NCBI RefSeq assembly: GCF_943181405.1
Contig: NZ_CALPBY010000003.1
Location: 1-64,000 of the forward strand
Reading direction: 5' to 3'
From: Cellulosimicrobium sp. Marseille-Q4280
GTDB taxonomy: Bacteria; Actinomycetota; Actinomycetes; Actinomycetales; Cellulomonadaceae
Length of the DNA stretch: 64,000 bases
Made by a program: the position numbers and the translations under genes. The notes under the pieces were generated by a model. It had not been told where the DNA came from, made no database searches, and saw only the letters and a program-made list of their open reading frames with translations. Shown here piece by piece: positions 3,211-61,231 of the stretch. The stretch's first letter is position 1. Each line of letters opens with the position of its first letter.

Positions 3211-4857
3211 ATGACGACCACGACGACGCCACGCATCCCTGCGACGGCCCCGCGCGTGCCTGCCGGGGTCCGAGAGGGCGGCCAGTGGACCACGACGGAG
3301 CGTGACGAGTCCGCCGTCCAGCTGACCGTCGACCCGGCTCGCGCGCTGCGTGAGCGGCACGAGCAGCTGGCCGCGGCAGGCTTCGTGCCCGCCGTCGCGC
3401 TGGCCGCCCGCCAGGACCCGCGCACCACCTCCGGGATCGACGCCTGGTGGGGTGACCACTTCGCCTCCGCGGAGTACCGCGCGGGCGAGGGCGGGTACCC
3501 CCAGATGCCGGACGACTACGGCACCACCGGGGACGGCAACGCCCTGTCCGGGGCGCGGCGCACCCGCCGCATGCGGTACTCCGGCAACGGGGTCGAGCTG
3601 CGGATGCCCGCCGCCGCGGTCGTGCGCCGCTTCGCCACCGAGAACGACGGCAAGACGTTCGACCTGCCGGTCACCGCCGAGATCGCCGAGGGCACCTCCA
3701 CCCGGCAGGTCGCCGGGTGGGTGCGCGTCGTGCCGCGCCCGGCCGGCGGGTACTCCGTCGCGCCGGTCGGCCTGGGCGGGGACACCGGCGTGCGCCTGGC
3801 CGAGTCCGTGTCCGCGGTGCTCGAGGCGCGCCGGCCGTCGCTGGCGCTGCGCCAGATCGGTGACCTGCTGGCCCGCCGCCGCGAGCGTGAGGCCGGGCAG
3901 GGCGCCGCGCTGCGTCCCGTCGACTCCTCGTGGGTCGAGGCGGTCGGGTACGACGAGGCGACCGGCATCATGGCGATGCAGACCCAGCGCGGTGACCTGT
4001 ACGGCCACCAGGTCTCGCGGACCCGGTTCGAGCAGGTCGTCTCCGACGCCTCCCCCGGCGCGCAGTTCAACCGCATCATCAAGGGCAACACCCGGGCTGC
4101 GGTCGCCCGCTGCGAGTCCGGATGCGGCCGGTTCTACTCGGCGACCAAGGCCCACACGTGCCCCGTCACGCCGTCCGCCCCGTCGACGCAGCGCATCGCC
4201 CAGAACGCCGCCGCGCGCGCCGCCGCGGCCGCCGTGACCGCGCCGGCCGTCCCCAAGGGCCCCGCCCCGGCGCCCGGCGCGCACACCCCGGCGGGCACCG
4301 TCATCGCCCGCGACGTCGACGAGTGGCAGGACCGGCACCTGCGCCGCCGCGACAAGCAGCTGGGCGTGTACGGCCCGGCCGGGTACACCAAGGCGCTCAC
4401 CCCGGCGCTGTCGCAGTTCACCACCTCGACGTACGTGCCGAACCTGTACCGCTCGTTCAAGGTCGGCGACCAGGTCACCCAGCTGCACAACGGCGACTCC
4501 GACGTCATGCGGTTCGAGGGCCTGCACGGCAAGAAGGCGATGGAGGTCGGCCGCGCGCTGACCGCGCGCCAGCGCGCCATGCGCCACGCCGGCGCCCCGA
4601 CCACGGGTGCCGCGCTGCTCGCCTCGGCCCGTCACCCGGGCAAGGTCGAGGCGTTCGGCTACATGGTCGCCCCGTCGCGCGAGGACGAGCGTCTCGCGGT
4701 CGGCGGCGTGCTGCTGTTCGACGACGCCCCCGACGAGCAGGCCGCGATCGCCGCGGCCGCCGAGTACGGGCTGGACGCCGTGGTCGAGCCGCAGCGGGTG
4801 CAGCGCGTCGAGGTGCCGTGGCGTCCGGGCGAGAAGGCCTGGCGCCTGACCTGGTGA
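3211..4857 (+). CDS. RVPAG-tagged protein, 548 aa, with Cys-rich centre
   Basis: The tag is at residues 15-26 (RVPAGVREGGQW, with Trp replacing the usual Phe), followed by 'ERDES' and 'VQL'. A Cys/His cluster 'CESGCGRFYSATKAHTC' near residue 300 could bind one zinc ion. An Ala-rich, probably disordered linker (about 330-360) separates the two halves. The C-terminal half contains 'GYMVAPSREDERLAVGGVLLFDDAP' split across predicted strands. I recognise no enzyme family. The ATG is set by the CCGCACAT box; no Shine-Dalgarno sequence is present. A strong hairpin follows the stop. Confidence 0.8.
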   Translation: MTTTTTPRIPATAPRVPAGVREGGQWTTTERDESAVQLTVDPARALRERHEQLAAAGFVPAVALAARQDPRTTSGIDAWWGDHFASAEYRAGEGGYPQMPDDYGTTGDGNALSGARRTRRMRYSGNGVELRMPAAAVVRRFATENDGKTFDLPVTAEIAEGTSTRQVAGWVRVVPRPAGGYSVAPVGLGGDTGVRLAESVSAVLEARRPSLALRQIGDLLARRREREAGQGAALRPVDSSWVEAVGYDEATGIMAMQTQRGDLYGHQVSRTRFEQVVSDASPGAQFNRIIKGNTRAAVARCESGCGRFYSATKAHTCPVTPSAPSTQRIAQNAAARAAAAAVTAPAVPKGPAPAPGAHTPAGTVIARDVDEWQDRHLRRRDKQLGVYGPAGYTKALTPALSQFTTSTYVPNLYRSFKVGDQVTQLHNGDSDVMRFEGLHGKKAMEVGRALTARQRAMRHAGAPTTGAALLASARHPGKVEAFGYMVAPSREDERLAVGGVLLFDDAPDEQAAIAAAAEYGLDAVVEPQRVQRVEVPWRPGEKAWRLTW

Positions 4858-4894
4858 GGACCCTCAAGTCGGCGCGTTCGCGACCGAAGTGGTG

Positions 4895-4928
4895 GGTGAG
4901 CGGCGGCCGGAGGGGGCCGCCGCTCACC
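4895..4928 (+). terminator. perfect 14-bp hairpin, candidate terminator
   Basis: The arms GGTGAGCGGCGGCC (4895-4908) and GGCCGCCGCTCACC (4915-4928) flank a 6-nt loop. There is no U tract, as is common in high-GC actinobacteria. It separates the 3211 gene from the 5005 gene. Confidence 0.6.
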
Positions 4929-5004
4929 AGCACGCCGGGCCCCGCCCGGGAACCGACCGGCTCGCGTACCGGACGCGAGCTCGAGCACGAGCACTGGAGA
5001 CCTG

Positions 5005-5811
5005 ATGCCCCAGCCCGACCTGTGGTCCACCCCTCCCGAGCCGCGCCGCCCCGCGCCCGCGCCGGTGCAGCAGCCGACCGAGACGTTCGACCCCGTCGCC
5101 GTGCACCCGTCCGGGCCGCCCGCGCCGGGGTTCCCGGCCCCGCACGCACCGGGGCCCCAGGGCGCCCCGCCGCCCGCACCGGGTGGTGAGCGGCCCATCA
5201 TCGTCCTGCTGGGCCTGATCTTCGCGTTCGTGGTGTGGCCGGTCGGCCTGGTCCTGTCGATCCTGGGCCTGCGCGAGGTCAAGCGCACCGGCGCGCCCGG
5301 GCGCGGCATGGCCAAGGCCGGCGTGATCCTGTCGTCGGTGTTCGGCGCTCTGAGCATCCTGGGCCTGATCGCCAGCGTCGTGCTGCCCCTGCTCCTCGGC
5401 GGCGCGATCCTGGACGCCACCGAGGAGCAGGGGTCCGGCACCTCGACATCGTCCACGCAGGACGGCTCCGCAGCCGAGCCCGGCGCGGGCGGTCAGCAGG
5501 ACGTCGTGATCGCCGACGGCATGCCGGCCGAGCTGCAGGACCAGTTCACCGCGTTCGCCGACCAGGCCGTCGCGCTGGTCGCGGGCACCGACGGCTCCCC
5601 CGGCGCGATGTACGACCCGGAGGCCGGCGGCCTGGGCCTGTACGCCGCGGACGGGTCGGTCTCGACCACGGTGGCGCTGACCGACCTCGGCGTCACCACC
5701 CCCGAGCAGGTCACCACGGCGTTCGTCATGCTGAACGAGGACGGCTCCCTCGCCCAGGCCTACATGGTCATCGGCGGGTACGAGGCGTCCAGCACCGGCC
5801 CGACACCGTGA
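5005..5811 (+). CDS. DUF4190-type membrane protein with extracytoplasmic domain
   Basis: 268 residues. Residues 1-60 are Pro-rich and cytoplasmic. Two hydrophobic helices follow (about 63-85 and 104-135), with the intervening 'SILGLREVKRTGAPGRGMAKAG' pattern that is typical of DUF4190 proteins but here split over two helices. The remaining 130 residues start with a Ser/Thr-rich linker and should lie outside the membrane. A GGAG just before the ATG supports the start. DUF4190 proteins are common actinobacterial membrane proteins of unknown role. It is flanked on both sides by strong hairpins, so it is likely a single-gene transcription unit not driven by a CCGCACAT box. Confidence 0.75.
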   Translation: MPQPDLWSTPPEPRRPAPAPVQQPTETFDPVAVHPSGPPAPGFPAPHAPGPQGAPPPAPGGERPIIVLLGLIFAFVVWPVGLVLSILGLREVKRTGAPGRGMAKAGVILSSVFGALSILGLIASVVLPLLLGGAILDATEEQGSGTSTSSTQDGSAAEPGAGGQQDVVIADGMPAELQDQFTAFADQAVALVAGTDGSPGAMYDPEAGGLGLYAADGSVSTTVALTDLGVTTPEQVTTAFVMLNEDGSLAQAYMVIGGYEASSTGPTP

Positions 5812-5837
5812 CGTCCTGACCGGACCAGCACGACCCC

Positions 5838-5883: not shown

Positions 5884-6855
5884 ATGATCGACATCGCGCG
5901 CGTGCCCGCAGGCGTCACCACCGGCGGCCAGTTCGCCACCACCGCCCGCTCCGAGGCCGCCGGCGTCACCCTGGCGCCACCGAAGCTCGAGGGCGCGCAC
6001 GACCCCGCCGTCGTGGACGGGACATGGATCTCCGACGGCCAGGTCCTGATCTCCCAGGTCGCCCGCGTCGACGGCGCCATCATGGTGAACTCCCGCGGCG
6101 GTCACCCCCAGGCCATCGCCGCCAACCGTGCGGTCGCCTCCCGCCTGCAGCGCGCCGGCGGCACCGACCTCGAGGACGAGGTGTTCGAGCTCGCCGCCTC
6201 CGGCGCGAAGGTCACCATGCTGCTGACGAACAAGGCCGGGGTGATCCGTGCCCACGAGGGCACGATGTACCGCAGCCCCGGCGGCAACCTCGCCCTGATC
6301 AACAAGGGCTCGCGCTCGGGCAAGGGCATGCTGCTCTACCGCGCCGACCAGCACCCCGACGAGCGCTGGCACGCGCGCCCGCTCGCGCTCAAGCGCGGCT
6401 ACGGCCACCTGGAGACGATGACCGACACGTGGCGCGAGACCGCCGCCACGATGCCCGCCACCGAGAAGCCGCACTACGACGACATCCCGGTCTGGGACGG
6501 GGCCGGTGAGCCGCCGAACGCCATCTCCGCGGTGTTCACCTTCACCCACCCCGGGTTCGAGGGCGTCGAGGGGCCGGGGTCGCTGTTCTTCGCGACCGAC
6601 GTCCAGACCGACAACGCGGGCAAGGCGTCCATCGTCAACGGGTACGGCGTCTACCCCTCGGACGCCGGGCTGGTCTCCGAGCACGGGTCGATGTACGTCT
6701 CGGACCTGGACGCCATGTCCGGGCGCGTCAGCGGCTTCGAGCCTGACAAGATGACGTTCTCCGACGCGATGGCGCTCGGCAACGCCGCGAACTGGGAGAA
6801 CGACATCGAGCGAGCCTGGGACGCCGTCGCGGCCCACAGCGGTCGCACGGCATGA
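5884..6855 (+). CDS. RVPAG-tagged protein, 323 aa, unknown function
   Basis: The tag occupies residues 6-17, followed by 'ARSEA' and 'VTL'. The body contains 'HEGTMYRSPGGNLALINKG' and a long polar stretch, and ends in 'MALGNAANWENDIERAW'. There is no signal peptide, membrane helix or recognisable catalytic motif. The start is fixed by the box at 5867. The stop overlaps the ATG of the CCA-adding-like gene (ATGA), so the two are probably one translational unit. I cannot name a family. Confidence 0.8.
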   Translation: MIDIARVPAGVTTGGQFATTARSEAAGVTLAPPKLEGAHDPAVVDGTWISDGQVLISQVARVDGAIMVNSRGGHPQAIAANRAVASRLQRAGGTDLEDEVFELAASGAKVTMLLTNKAGVIRAHEGTMYRSPGGNLALINKGSRSGKGMLLYRADQHPDERWHARPLALKRGYGHLETMTDTWRETAATMPATEKPHYDDIPVWDGAGEPPNAISAVFTFTHPGFEGVEGPGSLFFATDVQTDNAGKASIVNGYGVYPSDAGLVSEHGSMYVSDLDAMSGRVSGFEPDKMTFSDAMALGNAANWENDIERAWDAVAAHSGRTA

Positions 6856-8348
6856 CCCGCGCGCGGGTGCCGGCCGGCGTGACCGAGGGCGGCCAGTTCG
6901 CGACCGGCGCCCGCGCGGAAGCTGCGCTCACCCTCAGCGCCCCAGTGCGTGTGCCCGCCCAGGTCCCGGTCAGCCCGGCCGCCGCACGTGCACTGGACGC
7001 GATCGCCGCCGCCGGCGGGCGCGGCTACCTGGTCGGCGGGTGCGTGCGGGACTCGCTGCTGCGCCCCGGCGCGGCGCCCAAGGACGTCGACATCGAGGCC
7101 TACGGCCTGGAGCCGGGTGACCTGGCCCGCGCCCTGGACGGCGTCGGACGGGTCGACGAGGTCGGCAAGGCGTTCTCGGTCCTGACGGTGCGCACCGGCG
7201 GGCAGAGCCTGGATGTCGCCCTGCCGCGCCGGGAGGTGCGCACCGGCCCGGGCCACCGGGACTTCGCGATCGAGGTCGACCCCTACGTCGACCTGGCGAC
7301 CGCGTCGGGTCGCCGGGACTTCACGATCAACGCCCTGATGTTCGACCCCGCCTCTGGCGAGCTCGTGGACTGCTGGGGCGGACTGGACGACCTGCGAGCC
7401 GGCGTCCTGCGGCACACCACCCCCGCCTTCGCCGAGGACCCGCTGCGGGTGCTGCGCGGGGCCCGGTTCGCGGCACGGTTCGACCTGACCATGCACCCGG
7501 ACACCGTCGCGCTCGCCCGCGACCTCGCGCCCGAGTTCGCCTCGCTGTCCACCGAACGTGTCTGGGGCGAGTGGTCCACGATGGCCGCGACCGCCAAGCA
7601 CCCGTCGCGGTGGCTGGACGTGCTCGCCCAGACCGGGTGGCTGCGGCACTTCCCCGAGCTCGACGTCCTGCGCGGCATCTCCCAGGACCGGCGCTGGCAC
7701 CCCGAGGGCGACGTGTTCGAGCACTCCCGGCTGGCCGCCGACGCGGGCGCGCGCCTGGCGGACGAGGCCGGGCTGGACGGGCCCGACCGGGCGGCGATCG
7801 TGCTGGCCGCGATGCTGCACGACGTCGGCAAGGCCACCCACACCCAGTGCGACGGCGACCGGATCACCTCCCACGGCCACGACGAGTTCGGGGAGCCGAT
7901 CGCCAAGACGTTCCTGTCCCGGATCGGCGCGCCGCGGCACGTGGCCGACCTCGTGGGCCCGCTGGTGCGCAACCACATGGTCTCCACCACCGTCGCGCAG
8001 CCGTCCATGTCGACGGTGCGTCGTCTCGCGCGCCGCCTGGCTCCGGCCACGATGCAGCAGTGGGCGCTGGTCGTGGGCGCCGACCGGGGCGGGAGGGGCC
8101 CCGCGTCCGAGCCGGGCAACACCGGCCGGTGGTTGGAGCTGGCCCAGCGGGCCGGGACCGAGCAGCGGCCGGTACGCCCGATCCTCGGCGGCGACATCCT
8201 GCGCGCGGCCGGGTGGGCGCCCGGCCCCTCGTTCGGGCCGGTCATCAAGGCCGCGATCGCCGCGCAGGACGACGGCGCGTTCGCCGACGCCGACGGTGCC
8301 CGCGCATGGCTGGCGGCCACCTACCCGGGCGGGCAGCCGTCCGCCTGA
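6852..8348 (+). CDS. CCA-adding enzyme / poly(A) polymerase family protein with HD domain, RVPAG-tagged
   Basis: 498 residues. The RVPAG tag (5-16) precedes a complete class II tRNA nucleotidyltransferase layout. The nucleotidyltransferase strand has GGCVRD at 62-67 and a following 'KDVDIEAYG' supplying the metal-binding Asp pair. 'RRDFTINALMFD' and 'EDPLRVLRGARFAARF' are the family's neck signatures. An HD domain has MLHDVGK with H323-D324, and 'GPSFGPVIKAA' near the end matches the usual C-terminal helix. CCA-adding enzymes rebuild the tRNA 3' end; HD-containing members may also have phosphatase or phosphodiesterase activity. All catalytic residues I can check are present. What is unusual is the tag, which no chromosomal CCA enzyme known to me carries. 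ATGA overlap with the gene upstream. Confidence 0.85.
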   Translation: MTRARVPAGVTEGGQFATGARAEAALTLSAPVRVPAQVPVSPAAARALDAIAAAGGRGYLVGGCVRDSLLRPGAAPKDVDIEAYGLEPGDLARALDGVGRVDEVGKAFSVLTVRTGGQSLDVALPRREVRTGPGHRDFAIEVDPYVDLATASGRRDFTINALMFDPASGELVDCWGGLDDLRAGVLRHTTPAFAEDPLRVLRGARFAARFDLTMHPDTVALARDLAPEFASLSTERVWGEWSTMAATAKHPSRWLDVLAQTGWLRHFPELDVLRGISQDRRWHPEGDVFEHSRLAADAGARLADEAGLDGPDRAAIVLAAMLHDVGKATHTQCDGDRITSHGHDEFGEPIAKTFLSRIGAPRHVADLVGPLVRNHMVSTTVAQPSMSTVRRLARRLAPATMQQWALVVGADRGGRGPASEPGNTGRWLELAQRAGTEQRPVRPILGGDILRAAGWAPGPSFGPVIKAAIAAQDDGAFADADGARAWLAATYPGGQPSA

Positions 8349-8367: not shown

Positions 8368-9204
8368 ATGACCGACACCATGCGCTCCCGCGTCCCCGCT
8401 GGCGTGACCACGGGCGGGCAGTTCGCGACCGAGGCTCGCGGCGAGGCCGACGTCCAGCTCGCCGCCACCGCGCCGGCCGGTGTCGGGTCGCCGTCGACCG
8501 TCTACCTGGCGAACCTCGCTGAGCAGCTCGGGCTGCGCGGGCAGGCCACCTACGCCGACGACGACGCGCCCGCCGCGGGCTGGGCGAGCGCGACCTTCGT
8601 CTCCCCGGACGGCGACCGGCTGCTGATGTCGGCCTCGTCGCGCACGCGCCCGCACTCCGGCGAGGTCGAGACCACCGCCCTGTGCGTGGACCTCGAGCGC
8701 AGCGAGGACACGCCGCTGCCGTTGGCGGCCGTCGCGCAGGCCTTCCGGTCCGAGGTGTACGGCGGCGGGTCCGGCACGTGGGCGGCCAGCTCGCGGGCGA
8801 CGGTCCGCTCCGTCGTGCTGACCGCGGGGATGGCGCAGGCGGCCGCCGGCCGCTTCGAGCGTCCCGAGCACGGCATCACGGGCGTCACCTTCGGCACGCA
8901 GGTCGAGCTGCCGTCGGTGCGGTACGCCGACGACGAGGAGTACGAGACCAGCCCGCTCCTGACGTGCAAGGTCGACGGCGAGGGCCTGACGATCGCCGCC
9001 CACGACGACCACCTGGAGGTCGAGCTGGGCGACCTGCAGGTGGGCGACACCCCGGACCTCGTGCGCGACCTGGTCGGGGCAGACCTGTGCACCCGCCTCG
9101 GCATCGACCCGGGCGAGGACCCGATGGGTGCCCTGGAAGCGCAGCTGCGCGACCTCGCCGAGCAGGCCCGCCAGGGCGAGCTGTACCGCGCCTACTTCGG
9201 CTGA
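8368..9204 (+). CDS. RVPAG-tagged protein, 278 aa, unknown function
   Basis: The tag is at residues 8-19 and continues TEARGEADVQL, the fullest version of the consensus. The body is acidic, without membrane helices or Cys clusters. The C-terminal 70 residues are strongly acidic and helical (LEAQLRDLAEQARQGELYR). The 'SRTRPHSGEVETTALCVDL' and 'FGTQVELPSVRYADDEEYE' regions read as beta strands. No family recognised. Start set by the box; no Shine-Dalgarno sequence. Confidence 0.78.
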   Translation: MTDTMRSRVPAGVTTGGQFATEARGEADVQLAATAPAGVGSPSTVYLANLAEQLGLRGQATYADDDAPAAGWASATFVSPDGDRLLMSASSRTRPHSGEVETTALCVDLERSEDTPLPLAAVAQAFRSEVYGGGSGTWAASSRATVRSVVLTAGMAQAAAGRFERPEHGITGVTFGTQVELPSVRYADDEEYETSPLLTCKVDGEGLTIAAHDDHLEVELGDLQVGDTPDLVRDLVGADLCTRLGIDPGEDPMGALEAQLRDLAEQARQGELYRAYFG

Positions 9205-9238: not shown

Positions 9239-9988
9239 ATGAGCGCACAGACCCGGTCCCGTGTCCCCGCCGGCGTGACCACGGGCGGGCAGTTCGCCGC
9301 CTCGGCCCGGGGCGAGGCCGAGGTGACGCTGGGCGCCGCCGCGCCGGAGTACGACTTCGTCGGTCAGGACGCCCGCGGCGTCGACATCCTGGCCGGCGAC
9401 ACGGTCGTCAAGGTCGGCGGCGGCTACAGCGCCACCGCGTGGACGGTGGTCGGCGCCAAGGGCGAGAAGGTCACCGTCGCCTCGCAGAACAACCCGGCCA
9501 CCCGTCGCCACGTGAACCTGGCCGACTACACCATCGTGCGACCGGACCCGAACTACCCGACCCCGGAGGGGTACGCGGCGGCGCTCTACAACCAGGACCA
9601 GATCGAGGCACTGCGCGACGTCTGGGCCGACCGCGACCCCGGGTACGCGGCCGCGCTGCAGGACGTGATCGACGACCTGCCGATGCGCAAGGTCGGCTCG
9701 ACCTACCGCCAGGCGATGGTCGACCAGGTCGCACCCGAGCACCGCCGCGAGGTCGCCGAGGGGCCGTACTCGCTGTACTTCTCGCTGCGCAACGGCCACA
9801 ACGGCTGGAGCCACGACGACGCTCTGACTGCCGCCAACGCCCACAACGCGCTGCCCTTCCGCCCGCCGACCGCTGAGCAGCTGCGCGCGATGGACGACGA
9901 GCAGTTCCGCGCCCACCACCTGGCCTGGCGGATCCGCAACGACGACGCGACCCGCGAGCTCGTCGAGCAGATCGCCGCCGAGCGGTAG
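9239..9988 (+). CDS. RVPAG-tagged protein, 249 aa (paralogue of the next gene)
   Basis: The tag is at residues 8-19. Residues 30-150 match the next gene in order: 'YDFVGQDARGVDILAGDTVVK' pairs with 'LDFVGADAAGVFLVRDDWVT', 'YTIVRPDPN' with 'YEVMRPDPD', and 'WADRDPGYAAALQDVIDDL' with 'WAERDPAYAARLAQVIDRL'. The first part looks like a small beta-barrel (KOW/SH3-like in pattern). The C-terminal 100 residues differ and include 'HHLAWRIRNDD'. A tandem duplication followed by C-terminal replacement would explain the pair. Function unknown. Confidence 0.8.
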   Translation: MSAQTRSRVPAGVTTGGQFAASARGEAEVTLGAAAPEYDFVGQDARGVDILAGDTVVKVGGGYSATAWTVVGAKGEKVTVASQNNPATRRHVNLADYTIVRPDPNYPTPEGYAAALYNQDQIEALRDVWADRDPGYAAALQDVIDDLPMRKVGSTYRQAMVDQVAPEHRREVAEGPYSLYFSLRNGHNGWSHDDALTAANAHNALPFRPPTAEQLRAMDDEQFRAHHLAWRIRNDDATRELVEQIAAER

Positions 9989-10010: not shown

Positions 10011-11048
10011 ATGAGCGCACAGACCCGGCCTCGTGTTCCCGCCGGCGTGACCACCGGCGGGCAGTTCGCCGCCTCGGCTCGCGGCGAGTCCGCAGCGGAC
10101 CTGACCGTGCCCGCGCACCTGGACTTCGTCGGGGCCGACGCCGCCGGGGTGTTCCTGGTCCGCGACGACTGGGTCACCGAAGTCGCGGCCGGCGGCGGGT
10201 CGGACCCGTGGCGCGTCGAGGGCGCCCGCGACGGCAAGGTCGAGCTGCAGTCCGTGGACGACCCGACCGCGCGCCGGCTTGTCGACGGCGCGGACTACGA
10301 GGTCATGCGCCCCGACCCGGACAGCCCCTACGGCGAGCCCGCCACGCGCACGAGCGTCGACCACCTGGCGCAGGTCGCCGAGGAGTGGGCCGAGCGCGAC
10401 CCCGCGTACGCCGCGCGCCTGGCGCAGGTCATCGACCGGCTCACCGGCCCCGACCTGCCGGCGCGCGACGCGATCTTCACCGACCCGGTCGACCTGGTGC
10501 GCTCGACCGAGAACCACGACGGCTCCGACGTGGCCGTGCGTCGCCACCGCGCCGTCGAGCTCGCCGTCGCCCGCCCGCTGCCCCGGATCTCCAGCCAGAC
10601 CCGCCACCCCGCGAAGGTCGGGGCCGCCCGCTCCGCGCTGCGCGCCACCCGTGACCCGGGGCGGGTCGTCTCGCTGCGCGGCCTGGACACCATCGGCAAG
10701 GACCCGTTCGAGGTCCGCGGCAACGACACCGACCCGCTCGTGGTGATCAACCGCTCCGGGTTCAGCCACCTGCGCGTCACCTCCGGCGCCGCTCTCATCC
10801 ACGCCGAGTCCGCCTCTGGCAACGCCGTCACCGTCACCGACGGCGCGACCGCCGTGATCTTCGCCTCCCCGGGGCGCAAGGTCTCGGTCAGCGTCGAGGG
10901 GTCCGGCGTCGCGGTGCTCGTCAGCTCGCAGGACGTCCACGGCTACCAGCGCCGAGACGAGGGCGAGGGGTCCCTGGACGTGCTGCGTGAGGAGACCGAC
11001 CGCCTCACGGTCCGCACGCCGTCGAGCGACAAGGCGGTCCGGCCGTGA
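10011..11048 (+). CDS. RVPAG-tagged protein, 345 aa (paralogue of the previous gene)
   Basis: The tag is at residues 8-19; the first eight residues differ from the upstream paralogue only by S7P. The shared region ends near residue 150. The C-terminal half is different: 'VVSLRGLDTIGKDPFEVRGN' followed by short repeated strands ('LRVTSGAALIHAES', 'VTVTDGATAVIFAS', 'VSVSVEGSGVAVLVS') that look like a right-handed beta-helix or stacked beta-roll with about 20-residue rungs. Its stop overlaps the GTG of the prepilin gene by 4 bp, joining the tagged series to a pilin. Confidence 0.8.
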   Translation: MSAQTRPRVPAGVTTGGQFAASARGESAADLTVPAHLDFVGADAAGVFLVRDDWVTEVAAGGGSDPWRVEGARDGKVELQSVDDPTARRLVDGADYEVMRPDPDSPYGEPATRTSVDHLAQVAEEWAERDPAYAARLAQVIDRLTGPDLPARDAIFTDPVDLVRSTENHDGSDVAVRRHRAVELAVARPLPRISSQTRHPAKVGAARSALRATRDPGRVVSLRGLDTIGKDPFEVRGNDTDPLVVINRSGFSHLRVTSGAALIHAESASGNAVTVTDGATAVIFASPGRKVSVSVEGSGVAVLVSSQDVHGYQRRDEGEGSLDVLREETDRLTVRTPSSDKAVRP

Positions 11049-11680
11049 CGCGCCCGCCTTGTGCGCGGGCGGCGGCCCGGCGACCGGCGGGCTGGTCCGC
11101 CGGCTTCACGCTGACCGAGCTGCTCGTGGTCATCGTGATCATCGGCATCCTGTCCGCGGTCGGCGTGCCCATGTACCTGAACCAGCAGCGCAAGGCGGCC
11201 GACGGCACGCTGCGCTCCGACCTGCGCAACGCCGGGATGATCGTCACCTCCACCCTGCTGGACACCGGCGGCGCCGCCGGTCTGCGCGACCAGGTCAACT
11301 GGCACAACAACACCCTGTACGTGCACGAGGGCGCCTGGCAGACCCTGCCGACGTCGTCGCTGATGTGGAACGACCTCGGCCTGCAGGAGATCCCCGTCTC
11401 GGGTGACGTCCTGCTGGAGGTGCAGCACGTCGTCTCCTCCAGCGACTGGCCGCGCCGGCACGGCGACTTCGAGTTCTGCATCACCGGGGCGAACAAGGGC
11501 AGCAGTCACGACCGCCTGCGCGGCAGCGGCAACATCACGTACGACCGGTTCCTGTACTACGACTCCGTGCTCGGCGGCGTCGCCGACCTGAGCCGGGTCG
11601 CCGCAGCGGCCGACGCCGGTCAACAGCCCGCGTGCTACGCCTACGCCGACCTGTTCCGAGCCGCCGGCGGCACCCTGTGA
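11045..11680 (+). CDS. type IV prepilin (PilA-like), orphan
   Basis: 211 residues starting at a GTG that overlaps the previous stop. It has a 20-residue basic leader ending SAG, then FTLTELLVVIVIIGILSAVG, a textbook class III signal: cleavage after G20, F21 as the new N-terminus, and E25 at +5. The hydrophobic helix is nearly identical to that of pilA at 29246-29731, and 'VPMYLNQQRKAADG' parallels 'IPMYLNQQNKAHDA' there. The globular part has Cys pairs that could form a disulphide (FEFCITG and QPACYA). It lies 18 kb from the pilus locus, is coupled to a tagged gene on each side and has no Shine-Dalgarno sequence. Confidence 0.88.
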   Translation: MTRPPCARAAARRPAGWSAGFTLTELLVVIVIIGILSAVGVPMYLNQQRKAADGTLRSDLRNAGMIVTSTLLDTGGAAGLRDQVNWHNNTLYVHEGAWQTLPTSSLMWNDLGLQEIPVSGDVLLEVQHVVSSSDWPRRHGDFEFCITGANKGSSHDRLRGSGNITYDRFLYYDSVLGGVADLSRVAAAADAGQQPACYAYADLFRAAGGTL

Positions 11681-12390
11681 CCGGGGCCGCGCCGCGCCGC
11701 GTGCCCGCAGGCGTCACCACCGGGGGCCAGTTCGCTGCCCAGGCGCGCGCGGAGGCCGACGTCGACCTGGCCTCCACCTCCCGCGGCCGCCCGCCCAACG
11801 AGGCCGTGTGGTCCGAACGCGTCGACGCGCTGCAGTCCTTCGTCGAGGACGAGGCCCGTTGGCCGCTTCGGACCTCGCCGGACGCCGACGAGGCGCGTCT
11901 GGGGCGGTGGCTGTCCGACGTGCGCCAGGCCGCCGTCAACGGTCGCCGACCGAGCCTGACGCGTCCCCACCGCCTCGAGGCGCTGGACAACGCGGTCCCG
12001 GGCTGGCGCACCGGCACCCTGGACTCCCTCGTCGACGAGACGGGCAACATCCACGGCGAGCTGACCGTGCTGGGGCGAGCTGCCCAGCGAGGCGACCGCA
12101 CGGAGGCGCTCTGGCGCTGCCGGTGCACCTGTGGCGAGGAGGTCGTCGTCATCGGAAGCAGTCTGCGTCGAGGCGCCACCCGGTCCTGCGGTCACCTGCG
12201 CAAGACCGCGATCGACGAGGCGGGCAAGACCTACGGCGAGCTCACCGTGCTGCGGCGCACCCAGCGCGATGGGAACACTTCGGCCTTCTGGCTGTGCCAG
12301 TGCAGCTGCGGAAGGCAGACGACCGTCTACGGCGGAGCCCTGCGGTCGGGATCCACGCGCTCGTGCGGGCACCTCAAGCGGTTGACCTGA
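11677..12390 (+). CDS. RVPAG-tagged protein with helicase-associated domain and two zinc repeats
   Basis: 237 residues from a GTG overlapping the prepilin stop. Order: tag (8-19); a helicase-associated-type helical domain at about 40-105 (W..R...L..FV..E...P....D.ARLGRWL..VR.A...G..); then two zinc-binding repeats of about 50 residues. Each repeat reads 'GELTVL', W-x-C-x-C-x-C-G, and ends T-R-S-C-G-H. Such C-x-C-x-C-G/S-C-G repeats occur in phage and mobile-element proteins, often beside HNH or AP2 domains. No nuclease residues are visible. DNA binding is likely. It forms a translational chain with 10011 and 11045. Confidence 0.82.
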   Translation: MTGAAPRRVPAGVTTGGQFAAQARAEADVDLASTSRGRPPNEAVWSERVDALQSFVEDEARWPLRTSPDADEARLGRWLSDVRQAAVNGRRPSLTRPHRLEALDNAVPGWRTGTLDSLVDETGNIHGELTVLGRAAQRGDRTEALWRCRCTCGEEVVVIGSSLRRGATRSCGHLRKTAIDEAGKTYGELTVLRRTQRDGNTSAFWLCQCSCGRQTTVYGGALRSGSTRSCGHLKRLT

Positions 12391-12396
12391 CCCCGC

Positions 12397-12413: not shown

Positions 12414-13706
12414 ATGACCAGCGCAGCAGACCGCTCCCGCGTGCCCGCCGGCATCACCACCGGCGGCCAGTTCGCGACCCAGGCGCGCGGCGAGGCGGCC
12501 GTCGACCTGACCGGTCCCGCGGGGCTGCCGGCCGCCGACCAGCTCGACGCCGCGCTCGCGCGACTGGGCATCGACGAGGTGCCCACCGGCGTCGACGGCG
12601 TGCCGTTCACTGAGCACTGGGCGACCCGGTTCGCCGCCCTGGGCGAGCCCGAGCCGCCCCGAGCCGTCGACGAGGTCGCCCGCCAGGTCTCGGGCGTCGT
12701 CGACCCCGAGCGGATCAAGGGCGAACCGAACGCCGTGCTCGCCCACCCCCGCCCGCCGCTGGGCGGCAAGCCTCGCGTGGAGTGGTCGACGCTGCAGCAC
12801 TTCCCGGACCCGACCTCCCTGATGCACGGCGCGAAGGTCGCCGGGTACGTGCACCTGACCGGCCGGAACCTGCCGGCCGAGCTGGTCGCCCACCCCCGGT
12901 ACCTCGGCGTGGACCTCGAGGCCGACGCGCGGTGGTCGGACGAGCCGGACCCGACCGACGTCACGGTCCTGATCGAGCTCGACCTGGACGACGATGCGCT
13001 GACCGACGCCCTGGCCCGCCGCGACGAGCGGCGCTCCTGGGAGCAGTCCCGCGCGCTCGCCGACGACATCGCCACCGGGAAGGTGGCGCCGTGGTCGATC
13101 TGCCCGGTGAACGCCGACACCAAGGCGCTCATCGACGCCGAGCACGCCGCCTCGCGCGCCCGGGTGGAGCCGATGTCCCGCGAGCACGAGAGCGACCTGG
13201 GCACCCGCGACTCCCGGCGGCTGAACCGGGCAGACCTGCAGCGGGTCACCGCGACGCTGTCGTACCTGCGCGGGGAGTCCGACGAGGAGCCGCAGACGCA
13301 CTACAACGACCCGATCTGGGGCATCGCCAACCACGTGCGCGCCGGACGCGAGCACCGCGAGAAGGTCGCCAAGGCCGCGGTCTCCCAGGCGGGCCTGGAC
13401 CTGGCCGCCGACCCGTCGACCGACCCGCAGGTGCTCGCCGCGCTGGAGGAGGTCGGCGCCGTGCGCGACTGGAACACCCGGGTGCGGTGGGCTGCCCAGT
13501 CCCAGAAGCGGATCGACACCTGCATCGCCGAGGTCTCCGCCGCGGCCGACGACCTGTCCCGGATGGTCGACGAGCGCGACGAGCGTGCCGCCCACGCGGA
13601 TCGGGCCAAGGACCTGGCGTGGGCGCTGCGCTGGCCCGGCCCGTCCGATGAGTGCCCGGACGCCCCCGATGGCGCCCGCGGCGGCACCGAGCCCTCCTGG
13701 GGCTGA
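12414..13706 (+). CDS. RVPAG-tagged protein, 430 aa (paralogue of the next gene)
   Basis: The tag is at 9-20 after MTSAADRS, a leader identical to that of the next gene. Both proteins then share 'LPAAD.L.AALAR..I..VP' (about 40-60), a central segment with 'APW.....PVN.DT.A.......A' and a C-terminal 'ALRWPG'. This one is acidic, with a helical C-terminal third of coiled-coil character (residues 340-410). There are no catalytic signatures, signal peptide or membrane helices. Tandem duplicates with diverged middles suggest binding proteins rather than enzymes, but this is a guess. Confidence 0.8.
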   Translation: MTSAADRSRVPAGITTGGQFATQARGEAAVDLTGPAGLPAADQLDAALARLGIDEVPTGVDGVPFTEHWATRFAALGEPEPPRAVDEVARQVSGVVDPERIKGEPNAVLAHPRPPLGGKPRVEWSTLQHFPDPTSLMHGAKVAGYVHLTGRNLPAELVAHPRYLGVDLEADARWSDEPDPTDVTVLIELDLDDDALTDALARRDERRSWEQSRALADDIATGKVAPWSICPVNADTKALIDAEHAASRARVEPMSREHESDLGTRDSRRLNRADLQRVTATLSYLRGESDEEPQTHYNDPIWGIANHVRAGREHREKVAKAAVSQAGLDLAADPSTDPQVLAALEEVGAVRDWNTRVRWAAQSQKRIDTCIAEVSAAADDLSRMVDERDERAAHADRAKDLAWALRWPGPSDECPDAPDGARGGTEPSWG

Positions 13707-13732: not shown

Positions 13733-15115
13733 ATGACCAGCGCAGCAGACCGCTCCCGCGTCCCGGCCGGCGTCCGCACCGGCGGGCAGTTCGCCGCCGG
13801 CGCGCGCGGGGAGGCTGACGTGCACCTGGACGCCGGCGAGAAGCCGCTGCCCGCCGCCGACACGCTGACCGCCGCCCTGGCCCGGTACGCCATCACCGAC
13901 GTGCCGGCCGACCACGAGGGCGTGAGCCTGGAGCAGCGCTGGCGCGAGACGTTCGAGGTCCTGGACGGTGCCAAGCCGCCCCTGCCCGACCCGCTGATCT
14001 GGGCCCAGCTCGGCCCCGACTTCGTCGTGGCACGACACAAGGGCGGACCGGACCTGGTCTGGTTCGACCCGCAGGTGGCGTCGTTCTGGGACGAGGACCG
14101 CCAGTGGCGGCCCGTGCAGGAGGTGCCGCTGGACGAGGCAGCCGCCCGGAACCTGCAGCTGGTCGCGGCGTTCAGCACCCGCGCCGGCGGCGGGAATCGG
14201 GACTGCTGGTGCTCGACCGAGGATGCGGCCTCCCCCACGCACGACCGTGAGTGCACGGCGGCGATCGGCTGGAAGATGGGCGAGCACCCGCGCCACATGC
14301 ACGACGCGGACTCCGAGGACGGGTACGCCGACTGGTACTTCAAGCTCGACCTCGACGCCCCGATGCGCGAGGCGATCGAGGCCCGGCAGGCTCGGGCGGT
14401 GTGGGACGCCGCGGCGAACCGCCTCGCAGCGATCAGCGACGGCACGGCCGCCCCGTGGACCGTCATGCCGGTCAACCCCGACACGCAGGCCGCCGTGGTC
14501 AGCGCCCGGGCCGCGCTGGAGGAGATGGGCAGCAACGACCTGGACGAGCGGTCCGCGAAGGCCCTTGGCGTGCCCGTGTCCCACATGAGCACGTACTACG
14601 GCTCGGGGTCGCGCACCGACGTGCAGTTCACGCCGCAGCACCTCGAGGACGTCGACGCGGTGATCGCGTGGTCCGACGACCCGTCCCAGCCCGCCCCGCA
14701 GCTGGCGGCGAAGTGGGCTGGCGGCGTCACCGCGATCTGGCAGGCCCAGCAGGCCGTCGAGCAGATCACCAAGGCCACCGCGCCCGCTCGGCAGGCCGTC
14801 GCGGCCCGCCAGGCGATCGAGGCGGGGACGGTCGACGAGGACGTGGCCGCGGTGCTGCAGCGCGCCCTGGACTCATCGCTCGGGTTCAAGAACGCCGAGA
14901 AGCACCTGGACGACGCGCGCAACGACCTCGTCACCCGCGTCGGGCGGCTGCGCCAGGAGCGCGAGAAGCTCGTGGGCGCGGCCCAGCGGCGGCGCGAGCG
15001 CTTGGACCTCAAGCGTCGCGCGTCCGTCGACGGCAGCGCGCTGCGCTGGCCGGGCGAGCCGGGCACCGCGCCGCAGCTCACGACCGAGGCTGCTGCGGGC
15101 GCCGTCGAGTTCTAG
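13733..15115 (+). CDS. RVPAG-tagged protein, 460 aa (paralogue of the previous gene)
   Basis: The tag is at 9-20, followed by 'GARGEADVHL'. It shares the paralogue blocks described for 12414 but contains an insertion with 'DCWCSTEDAASPTHDRECTA', a Cys/His group that may bind zinc. The C-terminal 150 residues are helical and charged ('LVTRVGRLRQEREKLVGAAQ'), a likely coiled coil. It ends 15 bp from the stop of the convergent VanY-like gene, with no hairpin between them. Function unknown. Confidence 0.8.
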   Translation: MTSAADRSRVPAGVRTGGQFAAGARGEADVHLDAGEKPLPAADTLTAALARYAITDVPADHEGVSLEQRWRETFEVLDGAKPPLPDPLIWAQLGPDFVVARHKGGPDLVWFDPQVASFWDEDRQWRPVQEVPLDEAAARNLQLVAAFSTRAGGGNRDCWCSTEDAASPTHDRECTAAIGWKMGEHPRHMHDADSEDGYADWYFKLDLDAPMREAIEARQARAVWDAAANRLAAISDGTAAPWTVMPVNPDTQAAVVSARAALEEMGSNDLDERSAKALGVPVSHMSTYYGSGSRTDVQFTPQHLEDVDAVIAWSDDPSQPAPQLAAKWAGGVTAIWQAQQAVEQITKATAPARQAVAARQAIEAGTVDEDVAAVLQRALDSSLGFKNAEKHLDDARNDLVTRVGRLRQEREKLVGAAQRRRERLDLKRRASVDGSALRWPGEPGTAPQLTTEAAAGAVEF

Positions 15116-16122: not shown

Positions 16123-16947
16123 ATGACCAGCCACCAGCACCGTTCCCGGGTCCCCGCCGGCGTCACCACGGGCGGCCAGTTCGCGACCGAGGCCCGCGGC
16201 GAGGCCCCAGTGACGCTGTCCAGCCGGCCGCCGCACGCCGACGTCCTGGTCGATGGCGTGCAGGGTCCGAACAGCGCGACCTACGCCGCCGCGCTGTCGA
16301 AGGTCGCACCACTGGGCAACGTCCTGCTCAAGGTGCACGTCGACGAGCCCGGCGGCCGGTTCTCCGCCACCGCGTACGCCCTGGGCTACGAGTACCGCAT
16401 CGACTCCGGTGACGGCGACCACGTGCGCCTGAGCCGCGCGGACGGCGCGTACCTGGGCGACCAGTTCGGGCGGATCGAGGCGCTGGACTACCAGATGCCG
16501 CGCATGGTCGCCGCCGCCCACGTCGCGGCCCACGAGCGCGACACCCTCAAGAACGTCGAGCGGATGGTGCGCACGGAGTTCTCCTCCGAGCTGATCAAGC
16601 GGCACGTCGCGGCGGTGCGCCGCGGCCACACCTTCGACTCGATCGAGGTCGGCATCCCGCTCCCGGGAGACCACATGAAGGTCGTGGCGTTCGACACCGC
16701 GCCGGCCGGTAGCGGCCTGGACACCGTCGTCGACAAGCGCCTGTTCGCCCGCTCGGCGGTCAAGGACGACCAGCTGGCCGACCTGACCGACCGGCAGATC
16801 ACCAACCGCCTGAACAAGGCGCTGGACGCCATCGGCCCTGACCGCGCGTACAGCGAGAAGTACCTGCGCCGCTACATGGCGCTGGCCTGCGCCGAGCTGG
16901 ACACCCGCCGCGCGTCCGACCCGGTCTGGTCGGAGACCGAGCGATGA
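16123..16947 (+). CDS. RVPAG-tagged protein, 274 aa, unknown function
   Basis: The tag is at 9-20 with the full TEARGEAPVTL continuation. The body shows alternating strands at 60-130 ('GRFSATAYALGYEYRIDSGDGDHVRL') and a helical second half containing 'LADLTDRQITNRLNKALDAIG'. No cysteine clusters, membrane helices or known catalytic motif. Divergent from the VanY-like gene, and ATGA-coupled to the next tagged gene. Confidence 0.8.
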   Translation: MTSHQHRSRVPAGVTTGGQFATEARGEAPVTLSSRPPHADVLVDGVQGPNSATYAAALSKVAPLGNVLLKVHVDEPGGRFSATAYALGYEYRIDSGDGDHVRLSRADGAYLGDQFGRIEALDYQMPRMVAAAHVAAHERDTLKNVERMVRTEFSSELIKRHVAAVRRGHTFDSIEVGIPLPGDHMKVVAFDTAPAGSGLDTVVDKRLFARSAVKDDQLADLTDRQITNRLNKALDAIGPDRAYSEKYLRRYMALACAELDTRRASDPVWSETER

Positions 16948-17468
16948 GCGCCCCGACGCTCGCCCGCGTCCCGGCCGGGGTCCGCGCCGGCGGCCAGTTC
17001 TCCATCGCCGCGCGCGGCGAGTCCGGCATCGCGCTGCTCGCGTCCGTCCAGACGCCCCTGCACGGCCTGGGACGGTTCCGCCCCGGGCGGCCCAGCGCCA
17101 ACGCCCAGCTCGCCGCCGACGTCGTGACGCGCCTGGACGGTGTCGGCGCGTGGCGCGCGTGCGCCACGGTGCCCGACCCGGACGCCGCCGGCGACCCGGC
17201 CGCTGCGGTGTCGGTCGACGGGCACGTGCTGCTGCAGCCGTACGCCGACCCGTTCGACCCCGAGGTGTTCCTGGCCGAGCTCGACCCGTCCCGCGACGAC
17301 CCGTGGTCGCAGGCGTCGTTCTGGCGGCTGCGCGACGGCGAGCTCGACCGGCTCGACACCGACTGGCACGGGCGCACGCTGGAGGGTCCGACCTCCCACA
17401 CCGTCACCCGCACGCCCAAGGGCAAGCCGGACCCCGAGATGGTCGCGGCAGTCCTCGCCGAGTGGTGA
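16944..17468 (+). CDS. RVPAG-tagged protein, 174 aa, unknown function
   Basis: A small tagged protein (tag 8-19, then 'AARGESGIALL'). It starts on an ATGA overlap and therefore has no box of its own. 'AAVSVDGHVLLQPYADPFDPEVF' and a Trp-rich 'PWSQASFWRLRDGELDRLDTDW' are its only notable segments. Nothing suggests secretion or catalysis. Confidence 0.75.
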   Translation: MSAPTLARVPAGVRAGGQFSIAARGESGIALLASVQTPLHGLGRFRPGRPSANAQLAADVVTRLDGVGAWRACATVPDPDAAGDPAAAVSVDGHVLLQPYADPFDPEVFLAELDPSRDDPWSQASFWRLRDGELDRLDTDWHGRTLEGPTSHTVTRTPKGKPDPEMVAAVLAEW

Positions 17469-17501: not shown

Positions 17502-19061
17502 ATGACGAGCCTCGCTGACCGTTCCCGTGTCCCTGCCGGTGTCCGCACGGGCGGGCAGTTCGCCACCGAGGCGCGCGCGGAGTCCGACATCTCCCTGGCG
17601 CTCGCCCCGCACCAGGACCTGCCGCCCGTGGACGTCTCGCTCGCCGAGCTGACCGAGCAGTGGGAGCTGCGCGCGTTCGCCCCCGAGGCCGCCGCCACCC
17701 AGGCCCAGCGTGACCTCGAGCAGGCCCGGTTCCTGACCCTGGGCGGCGTGCCGGACGAGTACCTCGCCGCGCTGCTGGTCGCCGACGGTCGCACCCGCCT
17801 GCCGCGCACCTACGACCGTGGCGGCGCGTTCGGGCCCTCGGGCTGGAACTGCGCGCAGGGCGGCGAGGAGATCCGCGACGCCTACGCCTCCGGCATGCCC
17901 GCGCACTGGCCCGACCAGATGGCCGACCGCGGCGAGAAGTGGCGTGAGGGCTGCGTGCCGCGCTGGAACGCCGGCGTCACCGCCGAGGAGCTGGCGCGAC
18001 TGCAGTTCTTCGGCATGGACGGCGAGCCGGGCATCGCCGCCGCCTACGCCGGGCGCGACCTGCTCAAGGTCCGGGACTGGATCCGGGCGGCGTCGGACGA
18101 CAAGGGCTTCGGGCAGTACCTGGGGCGCTACCTCTCGCACGCCGGCGTCGGCCAGTACGTCGGCGAGGGCGTGCCGCTGCAGGACGTGCGCCTGTGCTAC
18201 GACCTGTCCGAGGACCCGAACAACGCCGTCGAGCCGGGCCTGGCGCGCCGGGGCCTGACCCGCCCCGACGGCACCGTGGAGAAGGGCCCGGACGCGATCC
18301 GCGAGCTCGTCGACTACGCCAAGGCGGCGGGCCGCTCGACCGACGAGGCCTACGAGGGCATCCGCCTGGGCATCTCCGCCAAGGACGTCAAGGCGTACGG
18401 CCCGAAGATCGAGCCGGCGGAGATCCCCGCGTTCGCCGACGCCGGTGTGCCGGCGAAGGTCGCCCGGTCCCTGCGCGCCCGCAACCGGCAGCTGTCCCCC
18501 GAACTGGCCGCGCGCCTGCACGACGCCGGGATCGTCTCCGGCGCCACCTACAAGGAGTGGGAGCGCCTGGCCACCGTCCGCGAGGGCGGCCTGGGCCGTC
18601 CGACCACGACGCGCACCGACTGGGACACCGTGCTGCCCATCGCCAAGGCCGGGGTGCCGCACGAGGTCGCCCAGGAGATGCGCGGGCACGGTGTGCCGCT
18701 GGAGTCGGTTGCCGAGATGCACGGCGCGGGCGTCACCGACATCGCGGCGTGGTCCGGGACCCTGCACAAGCGCACCCAGGCGACCATGCGCATGGAGCGG
18801 CGCACCCAGGCCGCGATGACGGCGATCTCGACGTTCGCCAAGGCCGGCGGCACGGTCGAGCAGCTGCGCCGCGCACAGCGCGCCGGCATCCCGCTGGTGG
18901 CCGCGCACGAGCACGTGTCCTCCACGCCGCAGGAGCTGTGGGCCGCGGGCGCCGAGAACCGCGCGGCCGCGCTGGCCGAGGAGGCCCGCCAGGCGTCCAT
19001 GTGGGGCCGTGACCGCTCCAGTGGGCACGGCTGGGACGTGACCGGACCGGAGGACCTGTGA
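17502..19061 (+). CDS. RVPAG-tagged helical-repeat protein, 519 aa
   Basis: The tag is at 9-20. From about residue 165 the protein becomes a series of short helical hairpins with a repeated A-G-V/I-P pattern: 'SHAGVGQYVGEGVPLQDVRL', 'ADAGVPAKVARSLRAR', 'HDAGIVSGATYKEW', 'AKAGVPHEVAQEMRGHGVPL', 'HGAGVTDIAAW', 'RAGIPLVAAHEHV'. Spacing is about 30-40 residues, giving at least six units that would stack as an alpha solenoid, usually a protein-binding scaffold. No enzymatic motif. The stop overlaps the GTG of the next tagged gene by 4 bp. Confidence 0.8.
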   Translation: MTSLADRSRVPAGVRTGGQFATEARAESDISLALAPHQDLPPVDVSLAELTEQWELRAFAPEAAATQAQRDLEQARFLTLGGVPDEYLAALLVADGRTRLPRTYDRGGAFGPSGWNCAQGGEEIRDAYASGMPAHWPDQMADRGEKWREGCVPRWNAGVTAEELARLQFFGMDGEPGIAAAYAGRDLLKVRDWIRAASDDKGFGQYLGRYLSHAGVGQYVGEGVPLQDVRLCYDLSEDPNNAVEPGLARRGLTRPDGTVEKGPDAIRELVDYAKAAGRSTDEAYEGIRLGISAKDVKAYGPKIEPAEIPAFADAGVPAKVARSLRARNRQLSPELAARLHDAGIVSGATYKEWERLATVREGGLGRPTTTRTDWDTVLPIAKAGVPHEVAQEMRGHGVPLESVAEMHGAGVTDIAAWSGTLHKRTQATMRMERRTQAAMTAISTFAKAGGTVEQLRRAQRAGIPLVAAHEHVSSTPQELWAAGAENRAAALAEEARQASMWGRDRSSGHGWDVTGPEDL

Positions 19062-31376: not shown

Positions 31377-31377
31377 G

Positions 31378-60343: not shown

Positions 60344-60352
60344 GGCCGGTAG

Positions 60353-60394
60353 ATGTGCGGACGCCCGGCTCCGAGATCGGCCCCGTCCGCACAT
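60353..60394. promoter_or_regulatory. divergent CCGCACAT boxes for 60343(-) and 60404(+)
   Basis: The minus box is at 60353-60360 (spacer ctaccggcc, then GTG) and the plus box at 60387-60394 (spacer cggtagtgc, then ATG), 26 bp apart. Confidence 0.6.
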
Positions 60395-60403
60395 CGGTAG
60401 TGC

Positions 60404-60625
60404 ATGAGCATCGACACCACGCCGGCCACGCCGCCCCGCCTTCGCATCAAGCCCGTCGCCGTGGTCTCGTGGGTCGCGCTGATCGCCGCCCTGATCTGGT
60501 GGGCGAACGACACCGTCGGGCACGGCTGGCCGATCGTGGCCGTCGTCGTCTGCGGGCTCGCCGTGCTCAAGGCCGTCGACGACGCCTGGACCGCGCGCAC
60601 CCTGCGCCGCCACCCGCGGCCCTGA
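60404..60625 (+). CDS. small two-helix membrane protein, 73 aa
   Basis: Two hydrophobic segments, 'PVAVVSWVALIAALIWW' and 'GWPIVAVVVCGLAVLKAV', are joined by a short loop with basic ends, so both termini are probably cytoplasmic. Small membrane proteins of this type are frequent on phages and plasmids (for example holin-like or entry-exclusion proteins), but no specific role can be claimed. Confidence 0.72.
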   Translation: MSIDTTPATPPRLRIKPVAVVSWVALIAALIWWANDTVGHGWPIVAVVVCGLAVLKAVDDAWTARTLRRHPRP

Positions 60626-60628
60626 GGC

Positions 60629-61231
60629 TCAGTCGGTCGCGAGGGCCATCGCGACGAACGGCGCCGGGTCCACCTCGGACGCCCGCCGCGCCAGCACCGT
60701 GTCCGTGCTGACCTGCAGCCGGCGCCCGTCCTCGAGCACGAGCAGCGCCGGCCAGGCCACGGGACGGCGCGACTCGCCGGCCCCCTCGAACCGCGTCGGG
60801 CGGTTGCGCGCCACCAGCAGCTTGGCGACCACGCCCCAGTTCGCCTTGCCGTACCCCTCGTACAGCGGCGAGACGGAGTCGCCGGCGCGCACCTGCCACG
60901 CCTTCGGGCGGGCCGCGGCCGTGCGCGCCTTGGAGTAGGCGGCGACCGCGTCCGCGACCGGCCCGCGCGGGTGGCGCCGGCCGATGCCGTTGCACGCGAA
61001 GCACCGCGAGTGCCCGGCGTCGCGGTTGTACTGCGACTTGCCCGACCCCTCGCACCGACCGCACAGCACCGTCGGGAACCCGAACTCGTCCGGCTCGGTG
61101 CCCGCGAGCTCGGGCATCTCGCCGAGCTCGACGTCGGCCTCCCCGCGCGCCTGCTCGGCGAACTGCCCGCCGGTGCGCACCCCGGCCGGGACACGGGCGG
61201 CGGGCGGTCGCGTGCGCGTGGTGGTGCTCAT
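60629..61231 (-). CDS. RVPAG-tagged protein with DnaJ-type zinc finger, 200 aa
   Basis: The only tagged gene outside the left block and the only one on the - strand. The tag is at 13-24, followed by EQARGEADVEL. 'CGRCEGSGKSQYNRDAGHSR' and 'CFACNGIGRR' form a C-x-x-C-x-G-x-G pair like one half of the DnaJ zinc finger. The C-terminal half has strands ('WPALLVLEDGRRLQVSTDTV'). It has no J domain and is too short to be DnaJ itself. Zinc-mediated binding to nucleic acid or unfolded protein is possible. Box-set ATG. Confidence 0.78.
   Translation of the reverse strand: MSTTTRTRPPAARVPAGVRTGGQFAEQARGEADVELGEMPELAGTEPDEFGFPTVLCGRCEGSGKSQYNRDAGHSRCFACNGIGRRHPRGPVADAVAAYSKARTAAARPKAWQVRAGDSVSPLYEGYGKANWGVVAKLLVARNRPTRFEGAGESRRPVAWPALLVLEDGRRLQVSTDTVLARRASEVDPAPFVAMALATD

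Follow-up and report, generated by a model that had tools for sequence, protein, structure and literature searches.

A short terminal peptide shared by unrelated soluble proteins of giant actinobacterial elements: a possible signal for conjugative delivery

Tagged genes in the 64-kb window

The stretch of DNA analysed here (the window) covers positions 1 to 64,000 of contig C3 (713,759 bases) in the 4.86-Mb genome of Cellulosimicrobium sp. Marseille-Q4280, and it carries sixteen genes whose products begin with one short peptide, hereafter the tag, which we consider as a possible delivery signal of the mobile element that bears it. As the original prediction had it, all 16 open reading frames are present, 15 on the plus and one on the minus strand, and the tag lies near the start throughout, the segment R-V-P-A-G-x3-G-G-Q being complete at most 30 residues from the start in 16/16. 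Ten columns are invariant over the 16 window tags (R V P A G... G G Q, plus a later R and E). The tag consensus is R-[VQ]-P-x-G-[VI]-x2-GGQFA-x3-[RHK]-x-E-x2-V-x-L, with a length of about 24 residues. A match to a looser pattern at 45843 on the minus strand has neither R-V nor the aromatic residue and is probably fortuitous.

On the plus strand, the series opens with a KTSC-like protein (weak match, E 0.0035) at 3211..4857 (tag 3253-3324), whose orthologues are tagged in the three related elements treated below (PT, W01 and W02). It is followed by a protein of no assigned family at 5884..6855 (tag 5899-5970) and by a CCA-adding/poly(A) polymerase type enzyme with an HD domain at 6852..8348 (tag 6864-6935), whose gene overlaps the preceding one and is without the upstream box described below. 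Three products of no assigned family (8368..9204, tag 8389-8460; 9239..9988, tag 9260-9331; 10011..11048, tag 10032-10103) precede a protein with a helicase-associated domain (11677..12390, tag 11698-11769), encoded by a gene with a GTG start and no box. The next six products likewise belong to no assigned family, and are encoded at 12414..13706 (tag 12438-12509), 13733..15115 (tag 13757-13828), 16123..16947 (tag 16147-16218), 16944..17468 (tag 16965-17036; overlapping the preceding gene and without box), 17502..19061 (tag 17526-17597) and 19067..19927 (tag 19088-19159; without box). Further along are a protein with CxxC pairs, zinc-ribbon-like by eye, whose orthologues bear other tag variants (24327..25505, tag 24342-24413), and an 80-residue protein (28577..28819, tag 28631-28702). 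The single minus-strand gene, at 60629..61231 (tag 61124-61195), encodes a stretch resembling a DnaJ-type zinc finger (weak, E 0.044). Half copies precede two of the tags, GRVPASASAPRVPAG in 28577-28702 and PRIPATAPRVPAG in 3211-3324, hinting at spread via slippage or recombination. Upstream of the series, an untagged FtsK/TcpA-like ATPase that is conserved in four elements is encoded at 69..1781 on the plus strand.

Modular spread over unrelated soluble proteins

The tag was followed through five element sequences, namely C3 and C9 of the Cellulosimicrobium genome, PT (Pseudactinotalea terrae, NZ_WNXZ01000001) and the Arthrobacter-group plasmids W01 (NZ_CP104273) and W02 (pACHL01 of Pseudarthrobacter chlorophenolicus A6, a soil isolate), in all of which genes were called anew (465 in W01 and 529 in W02, vs 476 and 541 annotated features). 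With a hidden Markov model of the tag at E<0.01, 184 of 1594 called genes are tagged, as against 2 after shuffling of the first 60 residues; the model was iterated on its own matches, starting from 43 seeds taken from C3 and C9 only, and its first round already returned 159 genes at E<=0.001. Tagged genes number 22/156 in C3, 36/260 in C9, 43/184 in PT, 38/465 in W01 and 45/529 in W02, and the Cellulosimicrobium element (C3 plus C9) thus encodes 58 tagged proteins by the new gene calls. Because in some genes scored as untagged (W01_116806, W02_358428, W01_143295 and C9_43051) the tag is degenerate or precedes the called start, 184 is probably a lower bound.

In 182/184 proteins the tag starts no later than residue 45. 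The other two, the orthologues C9_27973 and PT_50811, carry it at the very C-terminus, and the members of this family in W01 and W02 end in degenerate copies, ...GHAGQYTYRSHGEPTFRL and ...NRGSFASYQHAEPTFRL. A complete tag at the extreme C-terminus was also seen in a HipA-like protein of Cellulomonas hominis (L080:9024-10589), in whose genome the transfer ATPase discussed below was not found at the cut-off used. Once the tags had been removed, the 184 bodies fell into 131 families, 86 of them without a relative in the set (E<1e-8, 40% coverage). The idea that the tagged proteins are a single family with a conserved start and diverged bodies, to which some paralogues such as three on C3 at 95-98 kb might point, is extremely improbable in view of these counts and of the unrelated folds of the CCA enzyme, NAD ligase, Fic and ArdC; the original prediction of a tag on unrelated proteins, which had named one homologous family as the finding that would overturn it, came through this comparison. 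Searched with Pfam (E<=0.001), 128 representatives of the 131 families yielded 24 families, including NAD-dependent ligase, poly(A)-polymerase/CCA enzyme, Fic, ArdC-N, M78, SprT-like, DUF2958, DUF7007, helicase-associated and LPD29 (E 1e-4), with LPD1 at E 0.002. As 128 untagged proteins of at least 80 residues, sampled for comparison, yielded 89, the tagged proteins are unusually anonymous. Secretion-signal domains such as XVIPCD or BID were not among the 24, keeping in mind that Pfam may not hold every such model.

The tagged proteins are soluble. A transmembrane-like segment (19-residue window, mean hydropathy >=1.9) occurs in 1/184 of them vs 329/1410 untagged proteins (p 1.7e-18; the Fisher tests here and below ignore relatedness and include the Cellulosimicrobium genome), and in that sole protein the tag itself is degenerate. 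A Sec or Tat signal peptide, which the original prediction had already discounted, was rejected, as the hydrophobic core is missing in the other 183. Median length is 235-302 residues depending on the element. CxxC pairs are mildly enriched (11/173 vs 19/969, p 0.003), while no C-terminal charge common to tagged proteins was found (2.5 vs 2.3 K/R in the last 20 residues). The nameable DnaE, helicase, pilus and transfer proteins stand outside the tagged list. The only ArdC-N protein of the Cellulosimicrobium genome, C9_5494, combines the tag with ArdC-N and an M78/DUF6782 zincin; ArdC-N was found in 2/10 other genomes or records searched, the copy in genome G193 being tagged and that in Pseudactinotalea untagged.

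Beyond these elements, a 28-residue query against 72,556 plasmid records matched 9, all of the Arthrobacter group or Curtobacterium, 5 of them in 5-14 places each, and a profile search at E<=1 gave 35 matches on W01 and 49 on W02. Of 396 genomes examined, 10 are tag-positive, in a survey that scored 19 candidates per genome, so that weak tags can be missed; C. hominis (G312) belongs to the same family (f1) as our Cellulosimicrobium. A resemblance to phage proteins, suggested at the outset, did not hold up: 50,697 phage records gave two weak matches (E=8), of which the one inspected lies antisense to a primase gene, and a phage origin of the tag was rejected. One IMG/VR contig of 94.5 kb (L031) contains just one tagged gene, preceded by a sequence that resembles the box. 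We found no paper carrying the motif letters (RVPAG with plasmid; RVPAGV), and nothing about the tag in the portions consulted of the literature on these plasmids.

Peptide conservation, dialects and the host element

At the invariant Arg positions of 54 tags from C3 and C9 the codons are mixed (CGC 29, CGT 11, CGA 9, CGG 5), and synonymous codons also vary at the Gly and Pro positions of the tag, whereas Gln, Phe and Glu are each encoded almost uniformly (CAG 54/54, TTC 52/52, GAG 52/54), as is expected from a base composition of 74% G+C. In our reading of these codons, selection is on the peptide and not on the DNA. Upstream of 12/16 tagged window genes lies a box, CCGCACATCTA, that ends 6 bases before the start codon, as at 3194..3204 on the plus strand; further exact copies begin at 5867, 8351, 9222, 9994, 12397, 13716, 16106, 17485, 24310 and 28560 on that strand and at 60350 and 61238 on the minus strand. 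The genome holds 66 exact copies, 65 on C3 and C9 and 1 in a fragment on contig C2, vs 2 for the reversed pattern. In W01 (188 sites) and W02 (192 sites) the box reads CCG[CT]ACACA and commonly precedes a start by 7-9 or about 31-58 bases; 63 (W01) and 91 (W02) of these sites have no called start within 60 bases. The box looks like an element-wide promoter for leaderless or led transcripts. Its position just before many tagged genes, together with the near-single codons at Gln, Phe and Glu, could be taken to mean that the 5' stretch is itself a promoter, leader or recombination hotspot with the peptide a by-product. The synonymous variation at Arg, Gly and Pro, the box before many untagged genes, its lack at 4/16 tagged window genes and the C-terminal copies, which cannot be gene starts, make this highly improbable and largely refute it, although recombination may be a route by which the tag spread.

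Mean tag identity is 0.67 within the Cellulosimicrobium element and 0.65 within W02, while nine tagged orthologue pairs between these two share 0.46 vs 0.47 for random cross pairs; between such distant elements, to judge from these identities, the tag sequence tracks the element and not orthology. The within-element mean exceeds the orthologue value in 40/56 tagged orthologue pairs. Other lineages use dialects of the tag, RQPAGQPIGGQF in G193, NRVQAGIPEGGQ[FW]SETAKARP in G025 and RKRDTGExGNxGQFG in G222, G304 and G358, and these sit on orthologues of tagged proteins of the reference elements. Such likeness within an element is the pattern expected if each element had one reader, and gene conversion among tags could also give it.

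Within the Cellulosimicrobium genome, 58 of 59 tag matches at E<=10 belong to C3, where they extend to 108 kb, and to C9, a contig of 215 kb, and all 58 fall inside the element bounds, the last tagged genes ending at 108,460 and 189,839. The one remaining match lies on C2, in a copy of the gene at 60629 with a broken frame. C2 728001-734000 contains matches, 58-94% identical, to C3 genes 58883, 60404, 60629 (broken), 66844 and 110291, and this fragment is what is left of another, related element. Synteny with the Pseudactinotalea element places reversed C9 directly before C3, and the junction of the two contigs rests on it. A 23-base direct repeat, GTTCAAGTCCCCCTCCGGACACT, occurs in matching orientation at C9 200431-200453, where it makes up the 3' terminus of a tRNA-Leu(gag) gene, and at C3 114788-114810; a tyrosine recombinase gene (Phage_integrase, E 1e-17) at C9 199000-200307 adjoins that tRNA gene. 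Because of this repeat and recombinase, the host element appears to be integrated at tRNA-Leu and to measure about 315 kb (200.4 + 114.8, plus any inter-contig gap); an integrase beside a tRNA gene with flanking direct repeats is the configuration of an integrative conjugative element (ICE). The Arthrobacter relatives are circular plasmids, whereas this version looks integrated. The element carries 30 tRNAs and a tmRNA (C9 162312-172650) and pACHL01 carries 40 and a tmRNA (27520-36918), arrays for which the tagged CCA-adding enzyme may work; mycobacterial plasmids are also known to carry tRNA arrays (PMC12803027). An FtsK-like protein at C9 43746-50012 has 2088 residues vs 1412 in PT and gives homing-endonuclease matches, which suggests an intein.

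A possible route through the conjugation machine

An ATPase with the TrwB/VirB4 fold, the presumptive transfer ATPase, whose W02 gene spans 237792-240257, is encoded in 7/10 tag-positive genomes among the 396 examined, and tagged genes crowd next to the transfer genes. Three observations lend good support to the tag being an address, as originally predicted: the C-terminal copies, the way tags track the element and their near absence from membrane proteins. The more specific suggestion, transfer through the conjugation machine, is the best one remaining in view of the co-occurrence, the crowding beside transfer genes and the ArdC-type cargo; transfer itself we infer. Cumulatively, we give a probability of about 0.5 to the tag being a portable signal by which proteins are sent through the conjugation machine that the element itself encodes. 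As a substrate signal of about 24 residues, it would be read by a receptor in the transfer machine, most likely the TrwB/VirB4-fold ATPase or a partner encoded beside it, and dozens of soluble proteins would pass into the recipient cell together with the DNA, where they might protect and start up the incoming element.

Several observations weigh against this. The tag occurs without the ATPase in 3/10 genomes (G312, G091 and G390), G215 encodes the most diverged ATPase and has no tag, and in a class-wide sample of 394 genomes (E<=1e-30) the ATPase appeared in the Cellulosimicrobium genome and G193 only; moreover, linkage and co-occurrence are also expected of any gene set of one element. Between closer elements the tags are partly inherited, orthologues sharing 0.62 vs 0.56 for random pairs between the Cellulosimicrobium element and PT (20 pairs) and 0.58 vs 0.52 between W01 and W02 (14 pairs). 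Of the 81 reciprocal-best pairs in which at least one protein is tagged, 56 have the tag on both sides and 25 are mixed, of which 11 are start miscalls, degenerate tags or the C-terminal family and 14 look real; changes of tag status include ArdC, untagged in Pseudactinotalea, and LigA, tagged in two elements and untagged in two. HExxH motifs are not enriched in tagged proteins (6/173 vs 19/969, p 0.25), and because most tagged proteins have no recognisable function, the cargo logic rests on few cases. Finally, conjugation signals in the F conjutome paper are C-terminal or internal, N-terminal ones being merely mentioned in the part consulted (PMC11288057).

The main rival is an intracellular address, by which soluble proteins would dock through their tags on a hub, replication factory or shell that the element encodes, without being transferred. 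Although on balance unlikely, this explains the solubility, modularity, use of either terminus and element-specific tags equally well, and the elements bring with them many genes for replication and translation (dnaE, ribonucleotide reductase, ligases, 30-40 tRNAs and tmRNA). It fits the same pattern as a delivery tag, except that most nameable replication proteins (DnaE, SNF2 and SF1 helicases, SSB, ATP-dependent ligase) are untagged, with LigA tagged in two elements, and our computations do not separate the two readings. Bacterial microcompartments and encapsulins load unrelated enzymes by short terminal peptides; unlike in these systems, no shell gene was recognised in the annotation of pACHL01, whose whole record, with most products hypothetical, lists none as shell, capsid or encapsulin. 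That the tag brings about 40-60 soluble proteins per element into an intracellular compartment or factory made by the element, or into a delivery route dedicated to proteins, with a dialect and reader for each lineage, seems rather doubtful to us. Very unlikely, in turn, is a degron or adaptor role, in which tagged proteins would be handed to a Clp-type or proteasomal protease to give an expression pulse. Standalone Clp N-terminal-domain proteins do lie near the transfer ATPase in pACHL01, but in our clustering this family has members in W01 and W02 alone, with none in C3, C9 or PT, and was rejected as a universal tag partner; nor has destabilising the CCA enzyme, ligase and ArdC alike any obvious use.

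Delivery by conjugation would have parallels. In the X-T4SS (type IV secretion system) of Xanthomonadales, one recognition module, XVIPCD, occurs on many unrelated proteins and is read by a VirD4-type ATPase (PMC6536674). Like XVIPCD, the tag is common to many unrelated proteins of one system with a co-encoded VirD4/VirB4-type ATPase, whereas XVIPCD is a C-terminal module of ~120 residues and the tag, of ~24, is mostly N-terminal and occasionally C-terminal in Gram-positive giant elements, its recognition by the ATPase being a proposal. Proteins that may ease establishment enter the recipient with the F plasmid (PMC11288057), and ParA, ParB, SSB and PsiB of pED208 are co-transferred by conjugation (PMC8406263); the part consulted of the F work describes internal or C-terminal signals and no motif common to all, in contrast to the single motif of the tagged set. 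For polyvalent proteins, Iyer et al. (2017) predicted delivery of ArdC-type proteins, with ArdC-N suggested as a 'header' (PMC5512222). The likeness lies in the combination of ArdC-N and zincin in one tagged protein and LPD-type domains in one or two others, as predicted early-phase cargo. Polyvalent proteins, for which the text consulted names no short tag, are single multidomain polypeptides, an architecture that C9_5494 shares, whereas the tagged cargo as a whole contains few domains of this type and consists mostly of separate proteins with a common tag.

If the tag is a transfer signal, it would be a small portable one for Gram-positive conjugation and would allow one-step prediction of the protein cargo, mostly of unassigned function, of giant Gram-positive conjugative elements; F-plasmid cargo, by comparison, was found by screening fusions (PMC11288057). 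If it is a compartment address, plasmids or ICEs would show a novel form of organisation. On either reading, 58 proteins of one element become testable by a single reporter fusion.

With the ATPase's neighbour, Foldseek gave no match at E<=0.001, and no relaxase was among the matches listed, which excludes nothing. Upstream of the transfer ATPase lies a non-coding gap (C9 55908-57279, PT 6225-7301, W01 379893-381529, W02 240270-241834). These gaps contain CCGCTGCGCGG in 1-3 copies, a motif picked after inspecting them, and seven 11-mers common to at least 3 gaps vs a mean of 0.28 in shuffles (largest 3), and the gap is a candidate transfer origin. Finally, pACHL01 encodes its own SecG, SecY and SecE (11238-12836 and 50166-50444).

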